DNA of 64,000 bases, from assembly GCA_036874045.1 (NCBI GenBank), contig JAZBRI010000011.1, forward strand, positions 10,097,501 through 10,161,500, in the 5' to 3' direction. A model generated the notes under the pieces. It made no database searches and was not told the DNA's origin. It saw only the letters and a list, made by a program, of their open reading frames with translations. Within the stretch, counting starts at the first letter, position 1. Each line of letters begins with the position of its first letter. This DNA comes from Cymodocea nodosa (Eukaryota > Streptophyta > Magnoliopsida > Alismatales > Cymodoceaceae). The translations under genes were made by a program, and so were the position numbers. Positions 11,161 through 58,372 of this stretch are shown piece by piece.

Positions 11161-11172
11161 TGGTATCAAAGC
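11161..11172 (+). other. Primer-binding site, initiator-Met tRNA type
   Basis: TGGTATCAAAGC, two bases after the LTR end. One G to A change relative to copia-2B (TGGTATCAGAGC at 40957-40968). Confidence 0.8.
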
Positions 11173-11358
11173 TGATTTATAATCTTTGATATAAAATCGA
11201 TATCAAATTAATTAATATCATTGCTTATTCTGCCTTCTTTGTTTTTAAACAAAAATTAATATTTGAGTATACTTTTAACTTTCTTAATTTAAGGCTCAAA
11301 TCGTTTTTATTGTTTTAGACTGTTTTAAAATCAAATAGGTTGAAAAGTCTAAGGTAAG

Positions 11359-16600: not shown

Positions 16601-16744
16601 GATAACATAATTAAAAGAAAAATTAAATTAGGATTTGTGTCTAATAAAAATCAATTAGCTGATATATTTACAAAACCTATAGATGAAAATACATTCTGCA
16701 ACATAAGATTAAATTTGGGTATTTGTAGGCTATGTGATGTGTAA
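13625..16744 (+). pseudogene. Copia-2A pol: protease, integrase, RT, RNase H (nonsense-broken)
   Basis: One frame throughout with no frameshift. Protease: DSGASSHMT at about 13661. Integrase: an H-H-C-C zinc region (LWHRRIRH...CNACELC), then catalytic Asp 14246, Asp 14435 (SDHGTEF) and Glu 14543 (VVERKN). Reverse transcriptase: starts near 15230, with the YVDD box at 15794-15805. RNase H follows to 16744, ending LADIFTKPIDENTF...LGICRL. Stops: TAG 14141, TAG 14564 (CAG in 2B), TAA 15593 (CAA in 2B), TAG 16367 (TGG in 2B), plus TAA in the gag-pol linker. RNase H has also lost two acidic residues: Lys where 2B has Glu (AEYVA) and Tyr where 2B has Asp (YCDSSS). It is therefore inactive. Confidence 0.93.
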
Positions 16745-18346: not shown

Positions 18347-20592
18347 ATAGTCTCCATGTTCTTCAAAGGGTGTGACAGAGGAAAAGGAAAAGGCAGAGGA
18401 AATGGAAAAGGAAAAGAAATAGACAATGATGAAGTTCCACAAGCTTGGTTTAAGAAAATACTTCAAGTGGACAAAAGGTTAGCAAAAATATATAGTGAAC
18501 ACTTCTTTCCTAAAGGAATATTGAATGAAGTTAGACTAGAACTTCAAAATACTGATAAATGTATAAAATACATGGGTATCAAAAGTAAATTTGATAGAGA
18601 ATATATAATGAAGTGTGCTGAAATTGCATTTTTGGAATAGTATGCTAAATATATGAAAAAAGGTGTAGGTTCATCAACTAGAATTCCTCAAACACCCATA
18701 AACGATATAAGATTACATGCATTTGAGGAAGAACATGAATCTGCTATTCCTACTCCTTTGTATTCAAAAGAAAAACAAACAAATATTGTTGTTGATCAAA
18801 AGAAAGTTGAAGGTCTTCGAAAGGCAATAGTAATAGAAAGTGCCTTAGAAGAATTAAACCAAAAAACTTTTATGGAACAAATTTAGAAGAAAACAGCAAT
18901 ACTTGAAGAAGAGAAGCTGACTTGTTATAGAAGAAAAATCAGGAAAATTATGTTTAAGGAAACAAAGTCTATTGGAAATGAAAAATCAGATGAGTATTTA
19001 CTTCCAAAGGACAATGTATGTCTAGACATTGTACCTTACAATGCATCTGAAAATCTCATCAGTTTCGAGCATATTGCAACAAATGAAGATAATGAGAGTT
19101 TATTTTATCTTATTAGAAAACTAGAAAAGAAATCCAAGTTAAATATAAGTTTAAGTTTTTCTATTAGTTCAAGCCTTGATGATGCAGTAATTGAACAATC
19201 AGAGCATCAAGCAACTGACATAGAACAAGTTATTGTAGATATAATTGAAAATGTTGAGGCAGTAACTAGTTCATAGGCTGAATTGTCTAGAGTAGCGGAT
19301 ATTGAAAAAGTTAAGACTCCAGAAGAGCTTAATGTTAATCAGCCTTCTTCAGAATCTATAGAAATAGAGTTTGAGAATTCATAGCATGTATCAATGGAGA
19401 TATCTGTTGAACAAAATGAACAATTACAAACAGATACACCGACTGTAGAATTTGTGGAACAATTGAACTTTGAACATTCTATAGAGACTGAACTAATGAA
19501 TGTAGAAGATATTCAAAATGTTCCTTACAATGTTAAAGCTAGAGAATCAAGCTTACATATGCAGCTTCAAGAAAATAATTTCTTAGAGGAACAACATGAC
19601 ATTCATTTTGAAGAAGAGGTTCCTAAAGATGAATTAAATTCTGAATCAAGGCTTCAGGTATCACCTTCGTTGTATAGAGTATTACACATTCAAGGTAATT
19701 CAATTCATTTTAGATCTAAGGAAGCATTGCAGAAATACAATAATTTGATTACTTGTCAGATTTTGCATGCTCGTCCAATAAAGTTCAAAAATTTGATGGA
19801 AATAAGAGATCTATTTGAGTTTCAAGGTCTAATTCAATTCTTGCTAGTTGGAACAATATGGAAACAATATAAAGAGCTTATTGCATCTTTTTATAGCAAT
19901 CTGGTCAAGAAAGACAATATATTGACAACTCAAATAAATCAATAGGAGTTCACATTGTCTCCTGAATTAATTTTTGAAGTTTTGGGATTAAAAAATGAAG
20001 GTGTTGTTGTTACAAATAGATTTGACATGATCAGATAGTTGGAATGGGACATTCACTCGCTATCAAAGATTCTAGGTGTATATAGTGAAATGAGGTTAAT
20101 GGAAAATCTGAATGCAGAGGCAAGGTTTATTGCAAATATCCTACATGCCAATTTATTTCAGAGAGTCGAACACAATATGGAAGTCTGCAGAAGCGATTTA
20201 TATGAAACTTATGATTTGATGTTTTCATTTCTCATCTACAACATAATAGTTCAAAGTTATTTTTTGGTGATGCTGTATGTAGACTCCTTGCAAACCAATA
20301 AAATTTATCTGACTGGCCTTCTGAAAATAAAGGCATGAGAGCTTTTAGTATAACAGATTTGCAAAGATTCTATGCCATGCATCAACCTCAACCTCATCAT
20401 CAACAACAACAACTAGAATGTACAGAACAGATACAATCACCTATATAGCCAAGTTATTCAGTTCGAGCAAAACAGCAACCCCAACTACCTCCTTCCCTAG
20501 ATAATGTGCTTAACGAAATCAAAAATGATATTAGGCATCTAGGAGATAAAATATGTAATGCTATTAGTGATATCCTTAGGAGGAATAGATAA
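18347..20592 (+). pseudogene. Copia-2A accessory ORF (broken)
   Basis: Homolog of the copia-2B ORF at 48125-50399. The start codon has become ATA (18347-18349). The frame is kept with TAG stops at 18638, 18884, 19274, 19382, 19943 and 20036, then a deletion-frameshift near 20225; the homologous end is TAA 20590-20592. N-terminus basic (repeated GKGKG-type residues), middle acidic, and a C-terminal region of about 300 residues with DLFEFQGL, GLKNEGV and a Gln-rich tail. This C-terminal region matches the gypsy accessory ORFs at 60600-61230 and 53840-54650. It resembles the family annotated in plant genomes as 'putative plant transposon protein' (PF20167, from memory, unverified). Function unknown; no signal peptide or membrane segment is seen, so an envelope role is not supported. 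Confidence 0.75.
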
Positions 20593-21138
20593 ATGTCAAG
20601 TTATTTGTCTATTTGCTTGTATCTTAATACAAAATGTAATGTTTGTATTTATTGTTTGATTATTTAAATAATAAATTTTTCTATAAATGGTTCAATTCTT
20701 ATTTATGTTTACAGAAAGTTTAGTTGTAAATATATCTCTCGATTTATATACTGTGTAATCGTCTTTTTGATTAATGACAAAAAGGGGGAGATTATGTTAT
20801 AAATTCAAAAGAAGAAAATGATTATGATTTTAATTGCATATATTATAAAGGGAGATGATATTTAAGTAGTTATTGTAATCTGATAGATGATAATGTAATC
20901 TGAAAAGATAATTATATGGTTATTAAAATCTGAAAGATACTTATGTAATTATTGACATCTGAAAGTTTTATTTTTGAGAGGTGAATTTTACACAAATAAT
21001 AGAAATAAGTTTAAGTCAACTTAAGTCAACAAACTTGTTTGTTGAATTAAAAGTTAACTCAACGAAGGTGCTTTGTTGAGTTAAATATATTTCATAATTG
21101 ATTTAATATGGTTTTGTCATCATCAAAAAGGGGGAGAT
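20593..21138 (+). other. Copia-2A 3' non-coding region with polypurine tracts
   Basis: AAAAAGGGGGAGAT occurs twice, near 20779-20791 (internal copy) and at 21125-21138 (terminal, primes plus-strand synthesis). A box pair GTTAACTCAACGAAGG...TTTGTTGAGTTAA lies at about 21050-21085. No gene. Confidence 0.75.
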
Positions 21139-22718
21139 TGTTGAGTATTTTGTTTTGATGATGTATGCTGAATGAAAGTAATCATGTTTGCTCAATTACT
21201 ATTGCTTGTGAAAGGAAATTAAGAACATCAATTAATACAGAAAAAGTTTATTGACATAAATACTTGTCTATATTAGATTTGAAATTATACTAAGTTAAAT
21301 AACTAGTCGTTTCGTTGCATTAATTTCTCATTTAACTAAACGTTAAGTTAACGTGTGTATTTATTGAAAAGCATGATATGTTTCAATGTTATATTTTTTA
21401 TATCATGAATAGTGCACGTTTAGACAACTCGTTAAGTTAGAGTTTTATTCATATAGAGGTCACGTGAGAACTCATTGAGTTAGAGGCTTAAAGGTTAAAA
21501 TAGGTCACGTGAGAAGTCGTTAAGTTAGTGAGTAAAAGAAGAGACAAACTCATTAAGTTAGTGTTGTACACGTGGTGAAATTAAAGGTTACGAATGTTAT
21601 ATTATATCACGTGAGTTGCACATGTTTAACTCATTAAGTTAACATAATTAAACGCGTTGAGCTGCTATATTGAACACTAAGGCAACACGTTAGGTTAGTG
21701 TTATAAACTTAAGTTGTTATTATTGCATGTGGAAAAATTCTTATTATAAAAACATTTGTTTATTACTGGTTTGTTGAGTTATCTGTAATACAATGGAGTT
21801 GGTTCATTGAGTTATAGTAACACCACAAATCTGGTTCGTTGAGTTAGCGTAACACCATAGACTTAGTTTGTTGAGTTAGCTACAGTACTTGTCACGTGAG
21901 TTGACACATGAGGAACTCGTTAAGTTAGAAATGATAAGTTATATATCTACTTGTGTTACTCGTTTAGTTAACATTAAAGTAACGACTTCTTATTACACTT
22001 GATGAAAAATTTTGGATGAGAAAGTTTATTTTGCAGGAAATTTTTCAGAGATCCAAGATTGATGATTAAAGAAAATTCGAAATGTAAATGTGGGTCAGAA
22101 CGTGTGTATTTCGATGAAGGAAAAAGAGAAGACGTGAAGAAGTGGAAAACTGGTAGTGACTAAATGTGGAGGATATGCATGAAATGAAGATATAGTATAA
22201 AAGGCATAGAATTCTTGTTGATCAATTATCCTTGCACACCAAACGGAATATCTTTTTAGGGATCAAAAACACCTTTCGAGGAAAAGCTCTCAGATGGAAG
22301 AAAATTTAGTGAAGCAAAAAAGGTCAGATTTATGTCACTGAAGATCTGAAGTATCAGAAGAAAGCAAATTCAGTGAAGTAGAGAAAGTCAAATATTCGTC
22401 ACTGAAGAATTGCTGAAGAAGAAAAGAAGAAGAAGAAGAAGAAGAAAGATCTCAAATAGGGAGAAATGTTTTAAATTCCGCAAATTAGTTTTCTCTGTTT
22501 GTAGTTATGAAATTGTATAGATGAAACATGGTATCGTTATATAATTGTATCTACAATTTTTGAGGAGAATTGAATTGTATATTGTAATTGAAACCTTGAA
22601 TAAAATGATTTTATGAAAATAGTGTCTCAACTTGTTTTTAATTTTGAAGTTTCAATTATAATCGAAAAAGTTGAAAAACACAATTCACCCCTCTCTTGTG
22701 TAGCCATATGATCCTACA
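21139..22718 (+). repeat. Copia-2A 3' LTR
   Basis: 1580 bp, TGTTGAGT...CCTACA, followed by the TSD acatg. It keeps a box unit (near 21480-21530) that the 5' LTR lacks. TATAAAAGG at 22196; GAA microsatellite about 22425-22447. Confidence 0.92.
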
Positions 22719-22862: not shown

Positions 22863-23030
22863 TGTTTAGAATGAAAAAGTGCATATTATTAATGGTTAAA
22901 TGATGGTTAATTGCATAATATTTAGCTTATCATATGAGAATTAAGTCATTATGTCATAATTACACTGTTATATGCTTTAATTAGAATTACTACTTAAATT
23001 GGGAGAATTAATGTTAATTTAGTACATTTC

Positions 23031-23690
23031 TGAACTGTCGGTAAGTTGCAGGCTATGAAATTCTTAAGTATCCGAATTTTCTGATATTTCGGACAGTTAT
23101 GTTTAACAGACCGAACATGTTGGATAGTTATGTTTAAATTGCCGAACATTTATGTTTTGAAAGAATATTTTATTATTTCCTGAAGTACACGTGTCAAAAC
23201 CATAATGCATGACTTAAGTGAACTTTCGGTGAGTTATCTATAACTATCTGAAATTGCAGCTAGGCATCAGATAGTTATATGTGTAACTCTCCAAAATCTC
23301 TTTTTATTTATAAAATAGCTGTGGACATGTGTCATGTTCTGGTAAAGTGACTTAAGTGGATTTTCAGTGAGTTATCTATAACTATCCGAAATGCATCTAA
23401 GCATCAGATAGTTAGACTTGTAACTCTCTGAAATGTGTATTTTATTATTAAATCGCTACTAACACGTGTCGAGATCTTGTAGATTTACTTAAAGTTATAT
23501 ATCAGTGAGTTATTTGTAAGTATCCGAAATGCATCTGAGCATCTGAGCATCAGATAGTTAAGTTTGTAAGTATCCAAAATGCACCTAAGCATCGAATAGT
23601 TAAATTTATACACGTGTTTTATAGTTAAATCAACGAAGAAAGTCCGTTGAGTTATCTATAATTCCACGGACTATTTATTTTCTAATATGC
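23031..23690 (+). repeat. Box array in the G1 gypsy LTR
   Basis: Repeated pairs of TCGGTGAGTTA and TAACTATCCGAAATG, GCATC(A/G)GATAGTTA, ACTTAAG and CACGTG (near 23189, 23463, 23610). These are nearly the same words as the copia-1 LTR array at 812-1690, though the two elements belong to different superfamilies. Equivalent arrays: 30790-31440, 56410-56800 and, on minus, 8935-9430. Confidence 0.8.
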
Positions 23691-23833
23691 CACTGTAACG
23701 GTTGTAGAAAGAAGACAGTTGGAAGAAAAACCACGACTACACGTATCGCGTAGGGGGAAGAAAGCATCGCCGTTGATATGAATGAAGGAAATCCAACCGA
23801 CCATTCAAGAAAAAGTAGTTACTACTGAAGAAA

Positions 23834-23841
23834 TATAAAAG
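23834..23841 (+). promoter_or_regulatory. TATA box of G1 5' LTR
   Basis: TATAAAAG, conserved at 31596, 57214 and, on minus, at 8768-8775 and 36226-36233, always shortly after the box array. Confidence 0.6.
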
Positions 23842-25093
23842 AAAAGAAGAAAAAGAAGTAAAGTGTGCGTGTGTGATCGATGGACGACCAATATGTACAG
23901 AGGAGGAACACCAAGCTTTCTGCAGACGGTATCGGCAATTCTCCAAAGTACCACACCAACCATCATTACCACCATGTTACCACCACCATAATCACCAACC
24001 ATTGGAGGTCTGTGAGAATACTTTCTTGATGTCGGGTCGATTCCGAGCCAAACACGGTGCCTGACAACCATTGTGAGGAGTGATCGCGTCGTGGGAAGGG
24101 AAGCCATTTTCACCAAGTGCTGACTCATATTTCAGGAGATCGTAAAGCTTCTAGCCTTGGCTTCGGGTTGATGCCTGTATGCTGAAGAGGAGATCATCTT
24201 GCAATTCTGGACTCGCGATTCTATAGGGAGAGGAGACAGAATTGTAAGTGGTTTAATTTTCAGTGGTGTAATCGCGTTGCAAGTAGTGACAGAAGTATTT
24301 ACTATCGAGTGAGATTACTTTACATTTCACCTTTCACCCATTTCCTTGTTCATATTAAAACAAAAATACCAAAAACAATTTATCTGTGTTTGTATGTTGA
24401 ATTTGAGTGTTGTATTGTTTGTGTTGTATCATGATTAATGCTATCTTTATCAGTGTTGTGATTGTTTTATGTTAGTTTTAGTTTTACAGTTTATTGAAAT
24501 TGGTTCGTTCAAAAGACTTAAAGATTTTAATGGTTACTGTTTGAATTATATAAATGTTAGTATGCTTAATGATAAATCCAGTGTTTACTAACATTCAAGA
24601 GCTTAATTGATGTTATTTACGATCTATGGAATTGCCTAATGGTTGGCCGAATTCCTTTATAAATAACAGTATTAAAAAGCAGAGACAGGCTCGTGGAGTT
24701 AATAAAGTTCATGAGGTTAGTCCGTTGAGTTAGCCATAACTCAACGAACTTTGTCTGTTGAGTTAACTATAATTCAACAGAGGGCTTATTGAAGATATAA
24801 ATTTGATTGTTAACAAACTAACAGTTCTAAACTCTTAAGCAATTCCCTATGGGATCGACCTGTACTTGCACATTGATACAATAGACACTATGCACTTGCA
24901 GTTAAAGTACAAATTGGAATTAATATCTAAATTGTATTAAAGGTTGTTTGTTTACTTCTTAAAGAAAAGAATAGGCATAAAGATAAATTAATTAAGTAAA
25001 AATAGAAGTAACAAATCCAAGTTTTTCTAGTATGTTATTGGAGATCTAATTAGATATTCTGGTGTCGTGTTGGGAAAACGCAAACAAGTTTTA

Positions 25094-25111
25094 TGGTGCC
25101 ATTGCCGAGGA
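25094..25111 (+). other. Primer-binding site, tRNA-Asp type (degenerate)
   Basis: TGGTGCCATTGCCGAGGA, two or three changes from the Athila consensus TGGCGCCGTTGCCGGGGA, seven bases after the LTR end. Confidence 0.8.
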
Positions 25112-25171
25112 ATTAATATAAGCAATTGTTAGAGCTCTTTTGTTTTAATAGCTAGAGTTGTGTTTTCTTCT

Positions 25172-26104
25172 ATGATTGAGAATACGGCATATGCTTATGC
25201 TCAAAGATTTCTGAAACCTGTAATTAGCATATGTGAATTCTACAATTCCAGAGGACACGACATTTCTGATTGTTTGAAACTGAGAGGTTTACAGATGGTT
25301 AGATCCCATGAACAACAAATGAATTATCCTTAGTATAATAGAGCCGAGTATGAGAATCCTATAGTTTACCCAACTAATGGTCAGTATAGAATGTGTAATA
25401 TGTTGAGAGACACTGAAGTTTGGGATAGGTGGGATAGGTATGACAGACTAGAGCGTAGTATAGGGCAAAACCTTGACAAACTAGAATACTTTATGTGTCA
25501 GCAACAAGAAGTCAACCAATTAAACTATAAGGAAGCAAATTCAGAACCTAAAAAGGATATAATTTACGAAATTGAAAAAACCATAATGAAAATTGATCAA
25601 AAATTGAATGCAATGAGATTAAATGATCTGGAAAGAAAATTAAAAGCATTAGACGAATATACAATGAAAATACAAGTTATGCAGCAGGACAATGAAAATT
25701 ATAATGTTATAAACCTGCATAATTTGCAAAATATACAGCAAACAGAAAATAATAATGCAAGAGAATTTAAAGAATGCACTTTAAAACTAAAAACAATTGA
25801 AGATCATAATCACAAAAATGACATACAAAAACATCATGAGAGTAATGAAAATTTGGAAGATGTATGTGTAACATTAAGATCTAGAACTGATATACCACCA
25901 AGAACTCAAAATGAAAATAATATGAAGGTGGATAAGAGTAAAAATCAAAATGATAACGAAAATGTAATAGTTGAAAATCTAGAAATCACTGAAGAACAAT
26001 CTGAATCTGCTAATGAAGCTAAAAATGATCAAACAAATCAAGCGAAAGAAAAAGAACCTTTTAAATCACAATCTTTAGCACCCTATCCTGAAAGATTACA
26101 ATAA
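25172..26104 (+). pseudogene. G1 N-terminal gag-like region (zinc knuckle, no capsid domain)
   Basis: The frame opens at ATG 25172 shortly after the primer site, has one TAG near 25331, and runs to TAA 26102-26104; protease continues in the same frame. Near residue 21 is a knuckle-like CEFY....H....C, in which the second Cys has become Tyr. The rest is Asn/Glu/Lys-rich and coiled-coil-like. The Retrotrans_gag capsid domain that precedes the knuckle in Athila gag, and is visible in G2 and G3, is absent. The result looks like an internal deletion fusing the leader to the knuckle. The same structure at 1-238 and in G3 suggests it is a subfamily trait. Confidence 0.7.
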
Positions 26105-26608
26105 ACAATACCTGAAAAACAAGAAAAAATCAGAGAAATTTTTGAAAAAGTACAAGTTAACATTCCTTTGTTAGATCTATTGTAGAAAATGTCACCTTGT
26201 GCTAAATTTCTGAAGGATTGGTGTACTAAGAAAAGAGAGCGAAAAGTTCTTAGAAAGGTCTTTTTAGCTGAGCAAAGTAGTTCCCTATTTCTGCCACAAA
26301 TTCCTAAAAAGTTATCTGATCCTAGAATCCCTGTTATATCATGCACCATAGGAAATACCATTCTAGAAAGAACCTTAATAGACTTAGGTGCAGGTATAAA
26401 TGTTATGCCAAGTGATATATTTGCATCCTTAGGATTAGAAGGCTTAACTCCTACTAGTACGGTTATTCAATTAGCTGATAGAAGTATGAGATACCCTAGA
26501 GGAAAAATAGAGGATGTTCTAATTAAAATCAAAAATTTTATATATCCTATTGATATTGTAATTTTGGATTCCCAACAAATTAAGCATAAAAATAGTGATA
26601 CATCTTGA
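26105..26608 (+). pseudogene. G1 aspartic protease region
   Basis: In frame with the preceding segment, with TAG near 26186 and TGA at 26606. KFLKDW...KRERKVL, LPQIPKKLSDP and CTIGN lead into the active site DLGAGINVMP (Asp codon near 26381), followed by LADRSMRYPRGKIEDVL, all typical of Athila protease. Family members usually have DLGASIN; the Gly here is a change next to the catalytic triad. Retroviral-type proteases cut the polyprotein in the particle. Confidence 0.85.
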
Positions 26609-28438
26609 ATTTTGGGAAGGCCATTTTTAGCAACATCAAGGGCTGTTATAAATTGTAAGACTGGAGAAATGAAGTTAGCATATGGTAATGAGGATACTCA
26701 ATTAAATATTTTCAAACTAGAAAGGTTTGAGGAGTTAGAAATGTCCTTACATACCATAGACTTTTTAGAGGATGAAAGAGATATGTTAGATGATGTGATT
26801 CAAGAAGAATTAAATAGGCAAATCAATTCTGAAACTTTAGAGGAAAGTGAAAGCATAAACATAGAAGGAGATCTAGAAGAAATTAATTTAGAAAATGATG
26901 ATGTTCAATTAGGAGCTCTAGCTTCTGATGGGCAACATTTAGAATTAAAACCTTTACCTCCTGAATTAACCTATATATTTCTAGAAGATAAACGAACCTA
27001 TCCAATCATTATTGCTTCAAATTTAAAAGAGGATCAAATAGCTGAATTAAAAGATGTAGTAAAAAGTTATAAAGAAGAAATAGGATGGACTATGACTGAT
27101 ATAAAAGGGTTAAGTTCAACTTTATGCTGTCACCACATATATTTAGAAGAGAATGCTAAACCTGTTAGAATTCCTGAGAGGAAATTAAATCCAAACCTTA
27201 AAAAAGTAGTTAGGAAGGAAATAGTGAAATGGTTAGATAATGACATAATTTATCCGATTTCTGATAGCTTGTGGGTTAGTCCAATCCATGTAGTTCCCAA
27301 GAAATCAGGATTACCAGTTATTAGGAATGAAAGTCAAGACTTGATACCTACTAGAATTCAATCAGGCTGGAGAGTATGTATAGACTATAGAAAGCTGAAT
27401 GTTGTGACTAGGAAAGATCATTTTCCCTTACCTTTAATAGATCAAATGCTGGAAAGATTAGCTGGGCAAGAATATTTCTGTTTCTTAGACGGGTATTCAG
27501 GTTATAATCAAATTCCAGTAGCATTAGAGGATCAAGAGAAAACAACTTTCACCTGTCGTAATGGAACTTATTCTTTTAAGAGAATGCCATTCGGATTATG
27601 CAATGCACCAGCTACCTTTCAAAGGTGTATGTAGGGCATATTTACTGGAATGACTGAAGATTTTTTAGAAATATTTATGGATGCTTTTACTGTATATGGC
27701 AACTCATATGAAGTCTGTTTAAAAAATTTAGACTTAATATGAAAACGTTGTGTGGAAAAAAATATGGTTTTAAATTGGGAAAAATGTCACTTCATGGTTA
27801 AACAAGGAATAGTCTTAGGGCATGTTGTTTCTAAGAAAGGGTTGGAAGTAGATAAAGTTAAAATAGAAGTAATTTCTAATCTATCAGAACCTAAATCAGT
27901 AAAAGATATTAGATCATTTCTAGGACATGCTAGTTTTTATAGAAGATTTATTAAAGACTTTAGCAAGATAGCTAGACCTTTAACTAATCTATTAAAAGAT
28001 GTTCCATTTAACTTTGATAAAAATTGCAAGGAAGCATTTTTTAGACTTAAAACTAGCTTAATTTCAACTCCTATAATTCAAGCATCTCATTGGATCCATC
28101 CATTTGAATTAATGTGCGATGCTTCTGATTTTGCTGTAAGAGTAGTGTTGGGACAGAAGATAGAAAAATCTCCTAGAGTGATTCATTATGCAAGCAAAAC
28201 CTTAAATGATGCTCAAATTAATTACACAACTACTAAAAAAGAATTATTAGCTGTTGTTTTTGCTTTAGAAAAGTTTAGACCATATTTGATTGGAGCTAAA
28301 GTAATAGTATACATGGATCATTCAACTCTAAAACATCTAATAAAGAAAAAAGAGACTAAGTCTAGATTGATCCGATGGATATTATTATTACAAAAATTTG
28401 ATCTAGAAATTAAAGATAAAAAGGTTGTGAGAATGTAG
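26609..28438 (+). pseudogene. G1 reverse transcriptase and RNase H
   Basis: ILGRPFLATSRAVI links protease to RT. RT motifs in order: PVRIPERKLNP, VCIDYRKLN, FCFLDGYSGYNQI, FKRMPFGLCNAPATFQ, then FMDA at 27674-27685 where gypsy RTs have the catalytic (Y/F)xDD; the second Asp is Ala, so RT is inactive even without the stops (TAG 27632, TGA near 27740). RNase H: Asp in [10 protein letters not shown], Glu in [13 protein letters not shown], Asp in [11 protein letters not shown]. The frame is lost near 28424 inside the typical ...[11 protein letters not shown] linker, by a one-base change that yields TAG at 28436. Confidence 0.92.
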
Positions 28439-29837
28439 TAGCAGATCATTTATCAAGATTACAAATAGAAAAATCAAATATTGAAATTAAGGATAATTTT
28501 CTTGTTGAACAATTAATGACCATCAACACAATACCTTGGCATGTAAACATAGTTAATTACTTAGTTACTGGTTTAACACCTAAGGATTGGAATAGACAGG
28601 ATAAGAAAGTGTTTTTCTCAAGAGTAAATATTACTATTGGGAAGACCCATACTTATTTAAGAAATGTCCTAACCTGGTCTTAAAGAGGTGTGTTCTAGAA
28701 ACTGAATATCCGAGCATATTGTCTTTCTGTCATGATCAAGCTTGTGGAGGGCATTTTGGTTCAGGGAAAACTGCTGCAAAAATTCTACAATGTGGGTTTT
28801 ATTAGCCAACACTATTCAAAGATGCTCATAAATATTGCTTAAGTTGTTTAAGATGTCAACAAATAGGAAGAATATCAAAGAGGAATATGATGCCTCTTAA
28901 TCCTATTATTGAGGTTGAAATCTTTGATGTGTGGGGAATAGATTTTATGGGTCCATTTCCTATGTCTAATCAATTTAATTACATATTGTTGGGGGTGGAT
29001 TATGTATCTAAATGGGTAGAAGCTATTCCTACAAAAACTAATGACAACAAAGTGGTAATACAATTTATAAGAACAAATATATTTGCTAGATTTGGAATAC
29101 CTAAAGCTATTATCAATGATAGAGGAACTCATTTCTGTAATAGAAATTTTGAAGCCTTAATGAAGAAATATGGAGTAAACCACAAAATTGCAACATCATA
29201 TCATCCACAAACAAGTGGACAAGTAGAAAGTGCAAACAAACAAATTAAGTTAATCTTAGAAAAAGTAGTAAATCCTACTAGAACAGATTGGGTTAATAGA
29301 TTGATAGATATACTATGGGCTTATAGAACTGCTTATAAGACGAGCTTAGGTATGTCACCTTTTAGGCTAGTATATGGAAAAAGTTGTCATTTACCTGTTG
29401 AAATAGAACATAAAGCTTATTGGGCATTAAAAACTCTGAATACTAATTTAAATCAAACTACTGAAAATAGAAAAATGCAATTAATTGAATTAGAAGAATT
29501 TAGAAATGAAGCTTATTCGAAGACTGTAAGAGAAAAAGAGAAAATGAAATTCTAGCATGATAGAAAAATTATTCCAAAAAACTTTGAAATAGGACAAGAA
29601 GTATATCTTTATATGGCTAGACTCCGTAAACATCTAGGAAAATTAAGATCTAGATGGGCAGGACCTTACATAGTTCGAAATATTTATCCTTATGGAGCTA
29701 TTGAAATTGAAAATCTTAAAAATCAGAATATATTTAAAGTAAATGGACAAAGACTTAGACCAATTCTGAAAACACCAAAAAGCTCCTTTGGAATTATAGA
29801 AGAAGTTAGAGTAGAGGACTACTCGAGCTTTACTTAG
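28439..29837 (+). pseudogene. G1 integrase
   Basis: It continues in a shifted frame. H2C2 zinc domain (CHDQACGGHFG...CLSCLRCQ), with TAG near 28802 replacing the Trp of FYWP. Catalytic core from 28887: Asp in GIDFMGP, Asp in NDRGTHF, Glu in GQVESANK, all kept. TAG at 29553 interrupts the C-terminal part, then 29613-29837 gives GKLRSRWAGPYIV...GQRLRP, the usual Athila integrase end. No chromodomain and no envelope-like ORF follow. It inserts the cDNA into host DNA. Confidence 0.92.
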
Positions 29838-30637
29838 TAAGAAATCAGTTTTTATGTTTATATATATAAAATTAAAAATTAAAAAAAAAAAAAGAAAAAA
29901 GAAAAAAATTTGAGAGTTTATTGACTTGTTTGATCACGAGCCTTTTGTACTTGAGTAGATAAGTATGTAAGGATTGTTGACTTGAAAAAGGACTCTTGAA
30001 ATCTGGCAACTTAAGATCCTGATTAGATCTGTGATTGTTGACTGAATGCTCGTTACATGGGTACATTAGAAAGCTCTTGTATGATTCAAGTTTGTCAAAT
30101 TAACTTTTGAAGTAAAAAAAGAAAAGAAAAAAATATATATATATATACATACACTGTTCTGAAAAGATACAAGTGTTTTGTAAAATACAGATATCTTATG
30201 AATCAAGTATATTTTCTGTTATCTAGAATTGTTGTAATATGAATCTAGAATTGACTTTTGAAGTTGTTTAATGAAGATACAATTCTTTATTCTACTTGTC
30301 TTAATCATATTTAATTGGATTGTACTTTGATTTGTATGTTGTTGAAATTTCTTCTAGAAATCTTATTGGAAAATTCAAGATGGCAGATGATGAAAAGAAG
30401 AACAAACGATAATATAATTAACACCTATGTGATGATGATATACTTTGTATGTAATTTACATATATTCTAAGTATATTTGCAGGTTGATTACTGAAACATA
30501 TAGAATATATATTCTTATGCTGAACAGAAAAAAAAAGAAAGAAAGAGGGAGAAGAATTAATTCTAGCACTTTTAGAAAGACCAAGTAATTAGATCTTAGT
30601 TTGCTAAGGGACTAGCAAAATTTAGGTATGGGGGAAG
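29838..30637 (+). other. G1 3' non-coding region with the copia-shared module
   Basis: A-rich tract at 29877-29908, then 29912-30482 is clearly homologous to the post-pol block of copia-2 (17252-17815), with long near-identical stretches such as CCTTTTGTACTTGAGTAGAT. It ends at TTTGCAG (30482). A TA microsatellite lies near 30138. The PPT TATGGGGGAAG is at 30628-30637, next to the 3' LTR. No gene. Confidence 0.85.
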
Positions 30638-33600
30638 TGTTTAGAATGAAAAAGTGCATATTATTAATGGTTAAATGATGGTTAATTGCATAATATTTAG
30701 CTTATCATATGAGAATTAAGCCATTATGTTATAATTGCACTATTATATGCTTTAATTAGAATTACTACTTAAATTAGGGGAATTAATGTTAATTTAGTAC
30801 ATTTCTGAATTGTCGATAAGTTGCAGGCTGTGAAATTCTTAAGTATCCGATTTTTCTGATATTTCAGACAGTTATGTTTAACATACCGAACATATTTCAG
30901 ACAGTTATGTTTAACAGACCAAACATGTCAGATAGTTGCCGAACAGTTATGTTTTGAAAGAATATTTTATTATTTCCTGAAGTACATGTGTCAAAACCAT
31001 AATGCATGACTTAAGTGAACTTTCGGTGAGTTGGGCATCGGACAGTTATATGTGTAGCTCTCCAAAATCTCTTTTTATTTATAAAATAGTTGTGGACACG
31101 TGTTATGTTCTGGTAAAGTGACTTAAGTGAATTTTCGGTGAGTTATCTATAACTATCTGAAATGCATCTAAGCATCGGATAGTTAGACCTATAACTCTCC
31201 AAAATGTGTATTTTATTATTAAACTACTGCTGACACGTGTCGAGATCTTGTAGATTTACTTAAGTTATATATCGGTGAGTTATTTGTAAGTATCCGAAAT
31301 GCATCTGAGCATCAGATAGTTAAGTTTGTAAGTATCCAAAATGCACCTAAGCATCAGATAGTTAAATTTATGCATGTGTTTTATAGTTAAATCAACGAAG
31401 AAAGTCCGTTGAGTTATCTGTAATTCCACGGACTATTTATTTTCTAGTATGCCACTATAGCGGTTGCAGAAACATGACAGTTGGAAGAAAAACCACGACT
31501 ACATGTATTGCGCAGGGAGAAGAAAGCATCGCTGTTGATATGAATGAAGGAAATCCAACCGACCATTCAAGCAGAAGTAGTTACTACTGAAGAAATATAA
31601 AAGAAAAGAAGAAAAAGAAGTAAAGTGTATGTGTGTGATTGATGGATGGTCAGTATGTACAAAGGAGGAACACCAAGTTTTCTGTAGACGGTATCGGCAA
31701 TTCTCTAAAGTACCACACCAACCATCGTTACCACCATGTCACCACCACCATAATCACCAACCATCGGAGGTCTGTGAGAATACTTTCTTGATGTCAGGTC
31801 GATTTCAAGCCAAACATGGTGCTTGACAACCACTGTGAAGTGATTGCGTCGCGGGAAGGGAAGCCATTTTCACCAAGCGTCGACTCATATTTCAGGAGAT
31901 CGTAAAGCTTCTAACCTTGGCTTCGGGTTGATGCCTATATGCTGAAGAGGAGATCATCTTGTAATTCTGGACTCGCGATTCTATAGGGAGAGGAGACAGA
32001 ATTGTAAGTGGTTTAATTTTCAGTGGTGTAATCGCGTTGCAAGTAGTGACGGAAGTATTTACTATCGAGTGAGATTACTTTACATTTCACCTTTCGCCCA
32101 TTTCCATGTTCATATTAAAACAAAAATACCAAAAACAATTTATCTATGTTAGTATGTTGAATTTGAGTGTTGTATTGTTTGTGTTGTGTTGAGTATTTTG
32201 TTTTGATGATGTGTGCTGAATGAAAATAATCATATTTGCTCAATTACTATTGCTTGTGAAAAGAAATTAAAATCATCAATTAATACAGAAAAAGCTTACT
32301 AGCATAAATACTTGTTTGTATTGGATCTGAAGTTAATAACTAGTCATTTCATTGCATTAATTTCTCATTTAAGTAAACGTTAAGTTAACGTGTGTTTTTA
32401 TTGAAAAGCATGATATGTTTTAAAGTTATATCTTCTGTATCGTGAATAGTGCACGTTTAGACAACTCGTTAAGTTAGAGTTTTGTTTGTATAGAGGTCAC
32501 GTGAGAACTCGTTAAGTTAGAGGCTAAAAGGTTAAAATAGGTCACGTGATAACTCGTTAAGTTAGTGAGTAAAAGAAGAGACGAACTCGTTAAGTTAGTG
32601 TTATACACGTGGTGAAATTATAAGTTACGAATGTTATATTTTATCACGTGAGGTGCACATGTTTAACTCGTTAAGTTAACATAATTAAACGCGTTGAGTT
32701 GATATATTGAACACTAAGACAACATGTTAGGTTAGCGTTATAAACTTAAGTTGTTATTTTTGCACGTGGTAAAATTCTTATTACAAAAACATTTGTGTAT
32801 TACTAAATTGGTGAGTTAAAGTTTTTTTGGAGACTTACAGTCGTAACTATCTAAAAGGTAACTTAAGTCATGTTTTCAGGTCTTGACACGTGTCTCACTA
32901 GTTTTATGGTATAAAGAGTTTTTCGGTGACTTACAACCGTAACTATTTGAAACTTAAACTGTTTTCGGTGAGTTATCGTTTAACCTTCCGAAAGAAAGGT
33001 TAAGCTGGTTTGTTGAGTTAGCATAACACCACAGACTTAGTTCGTTGAGTTAGCTACAGTACTTGTCACGTGAAATGGCACAAGAGGAACTCGTTAAGCT
33101 AGAAATGTTAAGTTATATATATACTTGTGTTACTCGTTTAGTTAACATTAAAGTAATGACTTCTTATTACACTTGATGGAAAATTTTTTGGACGAGAAAG
33201 TTTATTTTGCAGGAAATTTTTCAGAGATCCAGGACTGATGATTAAAGAAAAATTCGAAATATAAACGTGGGTTAGAATGTGTGTTTCGATGAAGGAAAAA
33301 GAAAAGACATGGAGAAATGGAAAACTAGTAGTGGTTAAACGTGAAGGATATGCATGAAATGAAGATACAGCATAAAAGGCATAGAATTCTCGTTGATCAA
33401 ATTATCCTTGCACACAAAAAGAAAAATCTTTTCAAGGATCAAACCATCCCTACACACCAAAAGAAAATTTTTTTAGGGATCAAAAACACCTCTTCGGGGA
33501 AAATCTCTCAAGTGGAAGAAAATTCAGTGAAGCAGAAAAGGTTAAATTTGTCGCTGAAGATTTGAAGTATCAAGTGAAAGCAAATTCAGTGAAGTAGAGA

Positions 33601-34599
33601 AAGACAAGATATTCATCACTGAAGAATTGCTGAAGAAGAAAAAGAAGAAGAAGAAAGATCTCAAACAGGGAGAAAAGTTTTAAATTCCGTAAATTAGTTT
33701 TCTCTGTTTGTAGTTATGAAATTGTTTAGATGATACATGGTATTGAGTTATAATTTCATCTACAATTTCTAAGGAGATTGAATTGTATATTGTAATTGAA
33801 ACCGTGAATAAAAATGATCTTATGAAAAACAATGTCTCGACTTGTTTTTGAGTTTTAAAGTTTCAATTATATTTTAGAAAATATTAAAGATACACAATTC
33901 ACCCCCCCTCTTGTGTAGCCATACGATCCTACATGTTGTATCGTGATTAATGTTATCTTTGTCAGTGTTGTGATTGTTTTATGTTAGTTTTAGTTTTACA
34001 ATTTACTGAAATTGGTTCGTTCAAAAGACTTAAAGATTTTAATGGTTATTGTTTGAATTATCTAAATGTTAGTATGCTTAATGATAAATCTAGTGTTTAC
34101 TAACATTAAAGAACTTAATTGATGTTATTTACAATCTGTGGAATCACCCAATGGTTGGCCGAATTCCTTTGTAAATAACAGTATTGAAAAGTAGAGACTG
34201 GCTCGTGGAGTTAACTTAAGTCCACGAGGTTAGTCCGTTGAGTTAGCCATAACTCAACGAACTTTGTCCGTTGAGTTAACTGTAATTCAATGGAGGGCTT
34301 ATTGAAGATATAAATTTGATTGTTAACAAACGGACAGTTCTAAACTCTTAAGCAATTCCTTGTGGGATCGACCTATACTTGCACACTGATACAATAGACA
34401 CTATGCACTTGCAGTTAAAGTACAAATTGGAATTAATATCTAAATTGTATTAAAGGTTGTTTGTTTACTTCTTAAAGAAAAGAATAGGCATAAAGATAAA
34501 TTAACTAAGTAAAAACAGAAGTAACAAATCCAAGTTTTTTTGGTACGTTATTGGAGATCTAATCAGATATTCTGGTGTCGTACTGGGAAAATGCAAACA
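30638..34599 (+). repeat. G1 3' LTR, split by a copia-2 solo LTR
   Basis: Parts 30638-32186 and 33939-34599 together give about 2.2 kb, matching the 5' LTR. It ends AAATGCAAACA followed by the TSD ggcat. Boxes at 30790-31440 and 34200-34300; TATAAAAG at 31596-31603. Confidence 0.9.
32187..33933 (+). mobile_element. Copia-2 solo LTR nested in the G1 3' LTR
   Basis: TGTTGAGT...CCTACA, 1747 bp, flanked by a perfect TSD tgttg (32182-32186, 33934-33938). No internal sequence. Unlike the copia-2A LTRs, at 32813-33005 it has class I boxes (GGTGAGTTA, CCGAAAG, ACTTAAGTCA, CACGTG) where 2A has class II boxes; copia-2B shares a shorter form of this insert. Confidence 0.92.
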
Positions 34600-36772: not shown

Positions 36773-37207
36773 CTTCCCCCATGCTTAACTTTAGCTAGTC
36801 CCTTAGCAAACTATTAAGATCTAATTAGTTGGTTTTTCTAATGTACTAGAATTAATTCTTCATTTTGTATCTTCAGAATACATAGATTAGATTAATGTAA
36901 AGATATTCTATATTAATTCAATAATCTAATTTAACATTGTTTTCTCCTCTCTAACTTGCAAATATATTTAAACATATGTAAATTACATACAAAATATACT
37001 AGCATCACATAGGTGGTAGTTATATTATCATTTTTTTCTTTTTTCTTTTCAAACATCTATTATCTTGAATTTTCCAATATGATTTTCAGAATAAATTTCA
37101 ACTGCATACGAATCAAAACACAATCCAACTTAATATGATTAAAACAAGAAGGATAATGAATTGTATCTCAAATAAACAACTTCAAAAGTCTAATCTATAT
37201 TCATACT
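36773..37207 (-). other. G2 3' non-coding block with PPT
   Basis: The PPT (minus GCATGGGGGAAG) is at 36773-36784. 36958-37225 corresponds to the 3' half of the module shared by G1 and copia-2; its terminal TTTGCAG is TTTGCAA here. Its presence directly after the F-box stop shows that the F-box gene is inside the element. Confidence 0.75.
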
Positions 37208-38068
37208 TCAGTAATCATAAATAACAGAAAATATACCCAATTCATCCCACCATCTTACTAAACATACAGTAAGATCATCATATTCATTATACCATACTCC
37301 TAATTGAATTTTATCATATTCTATAGATGGTTGTTTAGCTATATCATTAGGTATAGGCAATATTTATATAAAGTCATCATCATAACTATCTATACTTACT
37401 ATGCATAAATCAGATCTAAATGCAACTGATATATCTATGACTAGATATATATATCCATCATGTATGACATGTGTGTTGTTAATTAATGTTTTCTGTCTTA
37501 GATATATCATAGTATTTTAAGTCCAAGATCTATTCAGAAAATTATATATACTTAAGCATAAATCCTCATCCCAATTTCTAGTTGGTCTCCAATAATACAA
37601 TTTTTTAGGAATGGTCAAATTTTTATCAAAAAATGTTAACACTGACCCACAATTTTTAGTTAGTACTTCAAATCTATCAAGCCTTCCTATATTCCATTCT
37701 TCTCTAGTAATAGAATTTCTAATCAAAATATCGGGTAATAGAATTGCATACCTTGGTTTGGTTTTGTAAATAATTAATCCTTCATCTATTCCTATAATAT
37801 GATCTATTCCTTCTAATGTATTGGGTGGAATTCTAGAAGTTTCTTCTATATTCAGATATTCATAGCTGATTGAACTATGATTAAATGACTTCCATAAAAA
37901 TCCGTCTCTAATATTAGTCATCTTTGTAGCTTGTAGTCCATGAAAATATTTTTCTCTAACACATTCTTTAATTTCCTTTAACACACAACATAATCTGCAC
38001 AGATCTTTAACTGATAAGTTACTCAGTACTTCTCTCATTACATCTAGTGGTAATTTCATCAATTTCAT
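37208..38068 (-). pseudogene. F-box protein with F-box-associated (FBA) region, captured by G2
   Basis: An intron-less frame of 286 codons from ATG 38068 to TGA 37208-37210, with two in-frame TAA stops (37517-37519, 37364-37366) and no frameshift. Residues 6-42 form an F-box (LPLDVMREVLSNLSVKDLCRL). GLIIYKTK and IRNSITREEW resemble the start of an FBA domain. After the first stop the frame still encodes the later FBA repeats: HDGYIYLV, DLCIVSIDSYDDDFI, ILPIPND, LGVWYNEYD. F-box proteins bind SKP1 and bring substrates to SCF ubiquitin ligases; the FBA part binds the substrate. It lies between gag and the PPT/LTR, in the place of pol and in the element's orientation. A box pair lies about 70-140 bases upstream. 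Short for the family (usually 350-400 residues). Confidence 0.85.
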
Positions 38069-39358: not shown

Positions 39359-40954
39359 TGTTGAGTATTTTGTTTTGATGATGTGTGCTGAATGAAAATA
39401 ATCATATTTGCTCAATTACTATTACTTGTGAAAAGAAATTGAAATCATCAATTAATATAGAAAAAGCTTACTGACATAAATACTTATCTGTATTGGATCT
39501 GAAGTTAATAAGTAGTCGTTTCGTTGCATTAATTTCTCATTTAACTAAACGTTAAGTTAATGTGTGTTTTTATTGAAAAGCATGATATGTTTTAAAGTTA
39601 TATCTTCTGTATCATGAATAGTGCACGTTTAGACAACTCGTTAAGTTAGAGGCTTAAAGGTTAAAATAGGTCACGTGAGAATTTGTTAAGTTAGTGAGTA
39701 AAATAAGAGACGAACTCGTTAAGTTAGTGTTATACACATGGTGAAATTATAAGTTACAAATGTTGTATTGTATCACGTGAGGTGCACATGTTTAACTTGT
39801 TAAGTTAGCATAACTAAACGCGTTGAGTTGCTATATTGAACACTAAGGCAACGCGTTAGGTTAGCGTTATAAACTTAAATTGTTATTTTTGCACGTGGTA
39901 AAATTCTTATTATAAAAACATTTGTTTATTGCTGAATTGGTGAGTTAAAGTTTTTCAAAGACTTACAACCGTAACTATCCGAAACTTAAACTGTTTTCGG
40001 TGAGTTATCGTTTAACCTTTCGAAAGAAAGATTAAGCTGGTTCGTTGAGTTAGCGTAACACCACAGACTTAGTTCGTTGAGTTAGCTACAGTACTTGTCA
40101 TGTGAAATGACACATGAGGAACTTGTTAAGTTAGAAACGTTAAGTTATATATATATATACTTGTGTTACTCGTTTAGTTAAAATTAAAGTTACGACTTTT
40201 TATTACACTTGATGAAAATTTTTTGGACGAGAAAGTTTATTTTGCAGGAAATTTTTCAGAGATCCAAGACTGATGATTAAAGAAAATTCGAAATGTAAAC
40301 GTGGGTCAAAACGTGTGTGTTTCGATAAAGGAAAAAAAAAAGACGTGGAGAAGTGGAAAACTAGTAGTGGTTAATCATGAAGGATATGCATGAAATGAAA
40401 ATTCAGTATAAAAGGCATAGAGTTCTCGTTGATCAAATGAATCCTTGCACACAAAATAAAAAATCTTTTCAAGGATCAAACTATCCTTGCACACCAAAAG
40501 AAAAATCTTTTTCAAGGATAAAAAACACCTCTTCGGGAAAAATCTCTCAGGTGGAAGAAAGTTCAGTGAAGCATAAAAAGGTAAGATTTATGTTACTGAA
40601 GATTTGAAGTATCAGAAGAAAGCAAATTCAATGAAGCATAAAAAGACAAGATATTCGTCATTGAAGAAGAAGAAGAAAGATCTCAAACAGGGAGAAATGT
40701 TTTAAATTCCGCAAATTAGTTTTCTCTGTTTGTAGTTATGAAATTGTTTAGATGATACATGGTATCGAGATATAATTGCATCTACAATTTCTGAGGAGAA
40801 TTGAATTGTATATTGTAATTGAAACCTTGAATAAAAATGATTTTATGAAAACAATGTCTCGACTTGTTTTTGAGTTTTAAAGTTTCAATTATATTTCAGA
40901 AAATATTGAAAAAACACAATTCACCCCCCTCTTGTGTAGCCATACGATCCTATA
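39359..40954 (+). repeat. Copia-2B 5' LTR
   Basis: 1596 bp, TGTTGAGT...CCTATA (the last C is T). It lacks about 56 bp present in its own 3' LTR (one CACGTG plus GTTAAGTTAGAG unit, near 39650). TATAAAAGG at 40407. Confidence 0.92.
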
Positions 40955-40956
40955 AG

Positions 40957-40968
40957 TGGTATCAGAGC
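40957..40968 (+). other. Primer-binding site, initiator-Met tRNA type
   Basis: TGGTATCAGAGC, a perfect plant Ty1/copia consensus. Confidence 0.88.
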
Positions 40969-41154
40969 TTTCTTAATAATCTTTGATATAAAATCGATAC
41001 CAACTTATTAAATATCATTGCTTATTCTACCTTCCTTGTTTTTAAACAGAAATTAATATCTAAGCATACGTTTAACTTTCTTGATTTAAGGCTCAAGTTG
41101 TTTTAAAGTTTTTAGATTGTTTAAAATCAAATAGGTTGAAAAATCTAAGGTAAG

Positions 41155-43410
41155 ATGGCTACTGGAAATGGTAATTTTTCTTTATATGAAGGCCAAAATC
41201 TTAATCGTCCTCCTTTATTTGATGAAATACATTTTGAATATTGGAAATATAGGATGACTATTTTTCTTCAAAGTATAGATCATAAGTTGTGGTTCATGAT
41301 TTCTAAACCATATACTCCGTTAACTACCCTTATAAAACTTGGACAATTACTGAAAAAGAAAATGAAACTCTGAATGCTAAGGGCTTAAATATTTTATTTT
41401 GTGCATTGAGTTATGAACAATTCAATAAAGTGCCGGCATATAAATCTGCTTATGAGGTGTGGCATGCATTAGAAGTTTCACATGAAGCTACTTCTCAAGT
41501 TAAAGAGACTAAAATAAACATGTTGATTCATAAGTATGAACTCTTTAAGATGCATGAAGACGAAAGTATTTCTAAGATGTTTTCCAGATTTCTTGACATC
41601 ATAAACTCTTTAAAATGCTTAGGAAAGAATTTTGAACAGAAGGATTTGGTGAGGAAAATTCTCAGATCCGTAAGTTCTAAATGGTCTCAGAAAGTAACAT
41701 CAATTGAGGAATCATGAGATTTAAATGTTTACACTATGAATGAATTTATAGGAAATTTAACAGCTTATGAAGTTTAATTAAATGAATCACTTAGTCACAA
41801 CAAACTAAAAATGAAGAAAGAAATAGCCTTCGAAATTAATTCGGATTTTGATATATCTACTAATTCTGATGAGGATTTGATTTTGCTGACTAGGAAATTC
41901 AAAAAAGCATGGAAAGCTAGGAAACATCAAAGGAACAAAAATGATAAACCCTCAACGCCAAAATCACTGAATGACAAGAATTCTTCATTCAAAAAGTATG
42001 TATGTTACAACTGTAAGAAACCTGGACATCTTTCTCCAAACTATCCTATGAGGAAAAATGAAAAGCAAAGTAGGACAAATCAAAAGAAGACAGCTTAGAA
42101 AACTCAGAAAAAGTTTTACAAGAAAAAGGCTTTGAAGGTCACTTAGGATGACACGTCTAAAGAGTCTGAATCTGAGGAATTATCATCAAAATCTTCACAT
42201 TCAGAAGGAGAACAGAGTTAGAAGACGTTGCTCATGTGTGCTTCATGGTAGATGAGTTTGAGGTAATATCTGATACTGAAAGTCATTCAGAATTCAACTT
42301 TGATGAATTACTATTGCTTATCATGCATTATTACAAAAACTTAAAGTATGTAAACTAGAAAATAAGAATATTAGAAAATCTTCATCCATTATGGAAGAAG
42401 AAAATTGTTTCCTGTCTACTACTTTAGAAAGTTTAAATGTGATAATGAAAATCATGCTAGAGATTTGCAAAAATTTAGATTTAATGAATGTATCTTGCAT
42501 GAACAAATACAGAATATAAATGCTGAAAAATTAAAGATAGAATCTAAAAATGAAATGTTGAGAAACAATATAAATGAACTTGAATTAGAGATAGATAAAT
42601 TAAAACTGAGAGTGCTAGATTTAAATTCTACCATTGAGAAATGGAATTTAAGTCAAACTAAGTTAGACAAACTAACTAGTACCCTTGTAGTGTCTTATAA
42701 ATTTGGCGTAGGATTTGATTATCCTGAATATCCTGAATCTCAAGCCAATAAAGGATTTATTAGTTGTAGTTCAAGTAAATCTAAGACTAAAATTCCTTTT
42801 ATTATGAAACAAGGTAATAAATATATAGAAGTAGGAACTTCAAGGGATGAATCATGTAGTAATAATATAAATCAATGTGATTTGTCAAATTGTACTTCTA
42901 ACATGACTATTAATGTTTCTAAAAATCTTGTTTCTTGTTCTGGAAATTCAGTTTCTAATGTTTCTAAAATTTCAAACAATTGTAGTAAATTGAAAATTTA
43001 GAAACCTAAGCATGTAATTCAATACACTAGTATTAGACCAATTACTCATTCTACATGTGATAAATCTGAAAATTTTTGTGTAGAAAAAGATTTTGTATGC
43101 ACTGAAAATTCAAATACAAGTACAAAATCTTGGTATGAACTTACTGAAATGTATGAGCATGACCAAAATAAATTAACATCTGATAAAAATCGATTTGGTC
43201 TTGGTTATACTACATCTGAAAACAAAAAGAATGATTATAAGAGCAATAATGCTATAAGTAAGTATGATGTTAAAAATAAGTCTATAGTACTTACAACTAA
43301 TAAGAATGTAAATGATAATGTTAAACTATTTTTAAACAAAAAGAAGAAATATGCGTTTAATGAACTTGGTCCTCAACAACTTTGGGTACCAAGAAAAAGT
43401 TTTTCTTAAT
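41155..43410 (+). pseudogene. Copia-2B gag (broken)
   Basis: Starts at ATG 41155, same N-terminus as copia-2A. A one-base deletion near 41330 shifts the frame; TGA 41715; TAA 41775 at exactly the position of TAA 11980 in 2A; further lesions in 42095-42400. The zinc knuckle at about 42004-42045 reads CYNCKKPGHLSPNY, its last Cys being Tyr. It ends with QLWVPRKSFS and TAA near 43408, in frame with pol. Confidence 0.85.
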
Positions 43411-46400: not shown

Positions 46401-46529
46401 GGAAAAATTAAATTAGAATTTATGTCTAGTAAAAATTAATTAGCTGATATATTTACAAAACCTCTAAACGAAAATACATTCTGCAACATTATATTAAATT
46501 TAGGTATTTGTAGGCTATATGATGTGTAA
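43411..46529 (+). pseudogene. Copia-2B pol: protease, integrase, RT, RNase H (few stops)
   Basis: One frame, no frameshift. Protease active site is DNGASSHMT (Ser to Asn, one G to A), followed by TAG for CAG near 43480. Integrase zinc region LWHRRIGH...CDACELG; Asp in HMDLFGP, Asp in SDHGTEF, Glu in VVERKN all kept; TAG 44190, TAG 44401 (TGG in 2A). RT from about 45020: TAG near 45213 (CAG in 2A), YVDD intact at 45579-45590. RNase H: the first Asp is Asn (YTNANYAG); AEYVA and YCDSSS are kept, the reverse of 2A. TAA 46437 (CAA in 2A); end at TAA 46527. It encodes the enzymes for cDNA synthesis and integration. Confidence 0.94.
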
Positions 46530-58365: not shown

Positions 58366-58372
58366 AGTTTTC

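Follow-up and report, generated by a model that had tools for sequence, protein, structure and literature searches.

A linker block of about 1 kb shared by a Sirevirus-like copia family and an Athila-like gypsy family in Cymodocea nodosa

LTR retrotransposons of two superfamilies lie next to each other in the window, by which we mean the whole 64,000-nucleotide stretch of Cymodocea nodosa DNA analysed here. Three elements are central to this report:

9650..22718, + strand: copia element c2A; 5' LTR without its first ~30 nt, LTR pair 90.3% identical
39359..52529, + strand: copia element c2B; LTR pair 92.7% identical, flanks giving the duplication CAATT
22863..34599, + strand: gypsy element G1; LTR halves 90.6% and 93.7% identical, duplication GGCAT

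The 3' LTR of G1 is split by a copia solo LTR at about 32187-33934. A domain search found a copia-type reverse transcriptase (RT; PF07727) in both c2A and c2B, and G1 has the gypsy-type order protease, RT, RNase H, integrase (PF13650, a weak match under its cut-off, PF00078, PF17917/PF17919, and PF00665). In both copia elements the Sirevirus octamer AGGGGGAG stands 10 bp before the 3' LTR, the junction reading AAAAAGGGGGAGAT and then, on the LTR side, TGTTGAG. Each element holds three copies of the octamer, this terminal one counted, the rest being inside the linker. Their primer-binding site (PBS) is one that we take to be of the initiator-Met type. Athila elements have a PBS complementary to tRNA-Asp, and TGGTGCCATTGCCGAGGA, which follows the 5' LTR of G1, may be of this Asp type, with three mismatches to the expected complement. 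Judged from domains and motifs, the families would be a Sirevirus-like copia (c2) and an Athila-like gypsy (G1), which we use as working names. Two LTR junctions may also be recorded: at 9649-9650 the end of a minus-strand gypsy LTR abuts the copia 5' LTR that is without its first ~30 nt, and at 58550-58877 a piece of the 3' end of a copia LTR stands immediately after a gypsy LTR.

Both families carry a common stretch of internal DNA, found also in part in a further gypsy element, G2. Its components in the window are the following:

16829..17215, + strand: prelink, upstream part of the block in c2A; begins 85 nt past the pol stop, outside the interval first reported
17243..17815, + strand: module of c2A, from alignment and self-comparison
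17255..17459, + strand: core of the c2A module, with low copia-gypsy divergence
17233..17439, - strand: putative antisense open stretch across the c2A core; 68 codons stop to stop, 57 from ATG
17807..17814, + strand: AGGGGGAG, a polypurine octamer of Sirevirus type on the 3' edge of the c2A block
47028..47608, + strand: module of c2B, with the same octamer at 47600-47607
29903..30483, + strand: module of G1, joined to the integrase end between A-rich tracts
30484..30637, + strand: tail of G1, from module to 3' LTR, with a polypurine tract at its end; 86-92% identical in 20/20 non-window gypsy places
36957..37245, - strand: 3' half of the module in G2, from alignment and self-comparison
36785..36956, - strand: tail of G2, with a weak likeness to copia past the octamer

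The original prediction described a 570-bp module in four intervals (17252-17815, 47036-47608, 29912-30482, and, on the minus strand, 36958-37225), and pairwise alignment shows that these do align. Over the first ~200 nt, which had been called close to identical, identity is 90.5% between c2A and c2B and 87.1% between c2 and G1. The two LTRs of each element are themselves 90.3% (c2A), 92.7% (c2B), and 90.6% and 93.7% (the two halves in G1) identical, so most of the difference in these 200 nt is of the size that post-insertion decay would produce. Further downstream, identity is 88.4% between c2A and c2B, 68-71% between c2 and G1, and 83% between G1 and G2, which was rightly said to carry the 3' part alone. 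The homology is real, but the size given for it was too small: the module is the downstream part of a block of ~980 nt (c2A 16829-17809), in which homology begins ~410 nt upstream of the reported start, at 16829 in copia and likewise in all six gypsy loci of ten kb. In these six loci the block is 69-72% identical over 1,039-1,102 aligned columns, and a counterpart of the prelink lies just upstream of the module in 20/20 non-window gypsy places, at 69-72% and over partial length in some.

The 2-kb bins that contain the modules are 67-74% AT and hold A-rich tracts, which could favour chance similarity of AT-rich or simple-repeat DNA. Similarity was measured against 200 dinucleotide shuffles each for the whole block, the prelink, the 3' part (mod3), and the module. 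The block of c2A (16829-17809) scored 2552 against gypsy locus L032 (top shuffle 1169), the prelink 887 (top shuffle 497), and the c2A module 1548 against that of G1 (top shuffle 648); all four real scores exceeded 200/200 shuffles. Chance is refuted by these scores and keeps a negligible probability, and the similarity is not limited to short simple-sequence stretches. A separate mobile element inserted into both families would be expected to show its own target-site duplications; read by eye, the block edges showed neither these nor element ends, and the two families match colinearly from one end of the block to the other. Where the block ends on the right is less certain, because similarity past the octamer was seen for the G2 tail (a score reached by 0 to 2 of 300 shuffles) and not for the G1 tail or four other gypsy tails; in L034, similarity to c2A extends to 17844. 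Comparison of the module with plasmids, and an exact 20-mer search against viral and prokaryote contigs, gave nothing informative.

The 374.6-Mb assembly (28 contigs) was then the source of further copies. The G1 module yielded 4,272 first-look candidates, which are not copy counts; the best 40 were scored, all listed at an identity of at least 93%, and 21 gypsy places were read, namely G1 and 20 others (loci L002-L008 duplicate seven of the 20). With the c2A module, 4,184 candidates were obtained, the best 40 were scored, and 30 loci were read, c2A of the window included. As both sets were retrieved by module similarity, they show the settings of the block, not the fraction of a family that carries it, nor third contexts. 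On the copia side, copia linker follows the module and copia sequence (prelink) precedes it in 30/30 loci. A match to RNase H is present in 27/30 (partial in several, non-adjacent in L063) and an env-like region in 26/30. An F-box match also occurs in copia loci L040 and L051, and a 54-nt match to the gypsy LTR in L043.

On the gypsy side, the tail and the LTR follow the module in 20/20 non-window places, and the integrase is beside the module in G1 only, one of the 21 places read. The six ten-kb loci give a fuller picture. In five of them the order is integrase end, 210-300 nt, ~3.1 kb with a PF20167-like ORF, a gag-like stretch, and an F-box ORF; then come ~900 nt past the end of the G2 F-box match, into which the frame continues, followed by block, tail, and LTR. 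The remaining locus, L030, has suffered a deletion, and L034 has a copia fragment inside the F-box. The original prediction placed the module after the pol stop in each element. This is correct for the c2 elements and for G1, but in the five loci the module lies ~7.5 kb past the integrase, behind the F-box ORF. G1 is without ~7.4 kb between two A-rich tracts when compared with these fuller copies and is hence a deletion copy, so that the name "post-pol module" fits the copia copies and G1, and does not fit the fuller gypsy copies. For the half that G2 lacks, the best account is a deletion that runs from the C-terminus of the F-box into the middle of the module, and the junctions of G1 and G2 indicate that this gypsy region readily recombines or deletes. 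Besides its 5' coding region, the gypsy family has a gag-like ORF (PF03732) downstream of pol, seen at 62838-63713 and in L029 and L031-L034.

The F-box ORF is represented in the window by one truncated copy:

37246..38068, - strand: F-box reading frame of G2, truncated; PF00646 at 1.3e-6, two in-frame stops

It sits between pol and the 3' LTR of gypsy elements (G2; L029-L034), and an F-box match was found in all eight distinct gypsy places whose locus reached far enough. A genome search, in which 150 of 5,455 candidates were scored, found five of the 150 without a stop in the match, with an open frame of 398-416 aa. Values of dN/dS of 0.24-0.32 (G2 against six copies, 125-183 codons) suggest that the ORF is probably maintained as a gene; comparison with PDB gave nothing informative. 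An F-box ORF kept in a gypsy element is a possible host-interaction gene, and a role against silencing would be a guess. G2 alone had given the idea that the 3' half of the module is a captured 3' UTR of the F-box gene, which was rejected since the F-box frame ends ahead of the block in L031-L033.

Outside the block, self-comparison of the window (hits of at least 100 nt) found copia-gypsy sharing only in a ~160-nt LTR stretch, a ~120-nt match between LTRs (9132-9251 and 32825-32946), and repeats that contain the box described below. The longer of these LTR stretches, found in copia at c2 9985-10150 and in other c2 LTR copies, is ~74% identical to 56801-56956, inside the gypsy LTR 56247-58548, where it is apparently an insertion relative to other gypsy LTRs; it would be either one more piece that copia and gypsy have in common or a small element present in each. 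The palindromic box TAACTCAACGAACT occurs 57 times at no more than two mismatches against 0.67 expected, many occurrences being repeat copies of the same LTRs. Copies lie in copia as well as gypsy LTRs and close to post-pol ORFs (10207-10317, 24719-24750, 38154-38191, 53165-53409, 58913-58992, and others), and directly upstream of the F-box ORF in 6/6 ten-kb gypsy loci. In c2A and c2B it stands in the LTRs and ahead of the env-like ORF, its CGG-CCG core not being constant, and one or more boxes occur in 16 of the 30 copia loci, with positions for six only. Finally, the copia env-like and gypsy PF20167-like ORFs (19385-19945, 49944-50399, 60494-61426) are distantly homologous, with 37% identity in an alignment of 83 residues (E 3e-19) and 36% in one of 80 residues (E 3e-16), these being two-sequence E-values. 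The gypsy post-pol ORF weakly matches Transposase_32 (PF20167) at 6.3e-5, under the curated cut-off.

Divergence between the families is uneven along the block. We aligned 29 copia blocks (28 of the 30 loci plus c2B, with L041 and L042 left out as short) and 20 gypsy blocks, and counted as fixed a difference whose state reaches 80% or more in each family. Fixed differences number 93/379 upstream, 12/205 in the core, 11/72 in the next stretch, and 68/264 in the 3' part, so that the core compares with 161/643 for its flanks (prelink and mod3); net divergence is 0.062 in the core against 0.248 and 0.254 in the flanks. This valley is lowest at 17340-17419 and intermediate upstream at 17020-17219, and its edges look graded. 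Within families, diversity over the same four parts is 0.072, 0.081, 0.056, and 0.058 for copia and 0.055, 0.044, 0.038, and 0.035 for gypsy, and shared copia variants amount to 23/205 in the core and 57/643 in the flanks. When each family is taken by itself, the core shows no consistent reduction in variation; this is an argument against simple purifying selection, but one blurred by C-to-T decay. Fixed and informative transitions number 7 and 26 in the core against 84 and 57 in the flanks (p 8e-5), a contrast that C-to-T decay could drive; the same contrast for transversions is not significant (p 0.21). The other transversion contrasts also lack significance (p 0.25 and 0.61); among copia transversion variants, shared and single-copy ones number 2 and 33 for the core as against 17 and 95 for its flanks, a difference that is likewise not significant. 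Trees of the three partitions all separate copia from gypsy, with support of 0.42 for the core, 0.75 for the prelink, and 1.0 for mod3, and no recombinant copy was caught in them among the 29 copia and 20 gypsy blocks.

The block was first described as non-coding. This is largely so, but not secure, as on the opposite strand a frame of 68 codons runs through the c2A core without a stop. In G1 the same frame has 75 codons stop to stop. Over 61 alignable codons it is intact, with neither stop nor length change, in 16/20 gypsy and 7/29 copia copies; 14 of the 29 copia copies have a length change and eight of the remaining 15 have stops, while the antisense ATG is present in 48/49 copies. Its third codon positions hold 8 of the 11 fixed copia-gypsy differences (17255-17447), and between families pN is 0.088 against a pS of 0.216. 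The frame was noticed only after inspection of the data; an equally long open stretch arises in 119/2,000 shuffles of the core and 615/2,000 of the whole block. Searches of Pfam and NCBIfam with a limit of E 10 gave no match, and PDB matches are no better than E 1.2. The frame may be genuine in the gypsy family and in decay in copia, or may be due to chance.

Folding of single copies of the core gave z of -0.6 to -1.5 against shuffles, i.e., a weak signal, and six windows of 148-149 nt gave -1.3 to 0.6. In an alignment fold test (24 of the 49 sequences, 60 crude column shuffles), z was -1.6 on the plus and -1.8 on the minus strand for the core, and 0.3 and 0.9 for mod3. The stretch 16829-17029 reached -6.0 (plus) and -2.5 (minus), which is a lead only. 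Fixed compensatory changes affect 3/29 pairs upstream and 0/38 in the next stretch. An AT-rich hairpin of 11 pairs at 16848-16891 is kept in both families, without compensatory changes. Several known identities were considered and rejected. The top match to an RNA family, snoR22, is sub-threshold at E 0.19, with 26.8 bits where the gathering score is 50; identity with a tRNA was likewise rejected on search. An intron is countered by the 5' splice-like site, which is good in c2A by a scoring matrix that we take to be adequate, but poor in G1 and altered in c2B, and also by the G2 tail, whose similarity continues past the 3' edge.

The block is homologous over its extent, exists in many copies in each family, has different neighbours on each side in the two families, and carries separate fixed family states. 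We consider it rather probable that a linker of ~1 kb passed between the Sirevirus-like copia and the Athila-like gypsy, likely by template switching, and was then amplified in both. Recombination between superfamilies, as originally proposed, is the best available reading, since the families have little else in common outside the block; the event itself is one that we infer. Parasitism of one packaging system, the other route originally proposed, would be a candidate at most, and the RNA fold of the core is weak. Reverse transcriptase would have switched templates between two co-packaged or chimeric RNAs, one copia and one gypsy, and the block would have been amplified afterwards along with both families. 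Copia may be the donor and gypsy the recipient: the Sirevirus-type octamer that borders the block on its 3' side and the position of this octamer before ENV in some Sireviruses weakly favour this direction, which rests on one octamer and one G2 tail. The core would then have been kept by selection, as a cis-acting signal or a short antisense ORF, or have been exchanged again later.

Independent capture by both families from a third source, for instance a transcript of the host or some other mobile element, would also explain why the neighbours differ, and the gypsy family already holds a host-derived-looking F-box ORF. We find such a capture unlikely: the 20 gypsy and 30 copia loci read apart from G1 included no third context, although this sample of 50 is biased, having been picked by likeness to the two known forms; the F-box frame stops before the block start in L031-L033; and no element ends are visible by eye at the borders. 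As for the core, it may be a cis-acting signal, a short antisense ORF, or an exchange hot spot. A second exchange between families, later than the rest of the block, deserves serious attention while falling short of probable. It accounts for low fixed divergence together with ordinary within-family variation and for the contrast in transitions, but the core tree, at its low support, parts all 29 copia from all 20 gypsy blocks, transversions show no significant contrast, and the edges are graded. Constraint alone on a cis-acting element (RNA export, stability, 3' processing, dimerisation, or packaging) would suit the graded valley and, without significance, the scarcity of shared copia transversions in the core; with no clear RNA fold and no consistent drop in within-family variation, we hold it to be somewhat doubtful. 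Maintenance of the antisense ORF in both families seems quite improbable. The frames open in c2A, G1, and most gypsy copies, the conserved ATG, and the third-position bias argue for it, as do the antisense post-pol ORFs described in plant LTR elements (PMC7264820, in excerpt), against which stand the disrupted copia copies, the frequency of such lengths by chance, its post hoc recognition, and the lack of a family match. A broader idea, to which we give an equally low probability, is that block or core is a shared signal (cis-acting or an antisense gene) letting both superfamilies use the same host factor or particle, with a common pool of modules comprising the core, the palindromic box, and related post-pol ORFs.

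If the transfer between copia and gypsy is true, their RNAs must have come together in the course of reverse transcription, and linker DNA passes from one superfamily to another in much the same way as ORFs. In the core, low divergence from family to family is combined with ordinary variation inside each, so that selection can be tested there against repeated exchange.

At the level of titles and abstracts, the literature yielded no non-coding block common to copia and gypsy and no F-box ORF throughout an Athila family, which is no proof of absence. Several known systems can nevertheless be compared, as far as excerpts of the published accounts describe them. The linker of Sireviruses contains multiple AGGGGGAG octamers, and palindromic repeats with a CGG-CCG core occur in the LTR and upstream of ENV (PMC2829016); the octamer lies before ENV in some Sireviruses (PMC2829016, table 2). 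Similarly, c2A and c2B have an octamer 10 bp before the 3' LTR, two more in the linker, and a repeated box both in the LTR and ahead of the env-like ORF. Unlike those motifs, described there within Sireviruses, a 1-kb stretch of linker and the box are here also found in a gypsy family, and the box is without a constant CGG-CCG core. Chimeras produced by template switching are known in plant LTR elements, for example complex elements of Triticeae (PMC1950507) and BARE/Wis-2 and Veju (PMC13317346). There too, foreign sequence was gained in reverse transcription and sometimes amplified later; here the partners are a copia and a gypsy and the piece is an internal linker. Sharing across unrelated classes of retroelements, with RT template switches proposed, has been reported in bdelloid rotifers (PMC5408684), but there protein-coding ORFs are shared, and here it is mainly a block without a secure ORF. 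Finally, additional post-pol ORFs are found in plant LTR elements (PMC7264820; PMC11963269), including a sunflower Athila ORF with partial similarity to Transposase_32 (PMC11728184). The Cymodocea families resemble these in their long post-pol region, in the weak PF20167 match in gypsy, and in a possible antisense ORF, and differ from them in that the copia env-like ORF is a distant relative of the PF20167-like ORF and in that the gypsy family adds gag-like and F-box ORFs.
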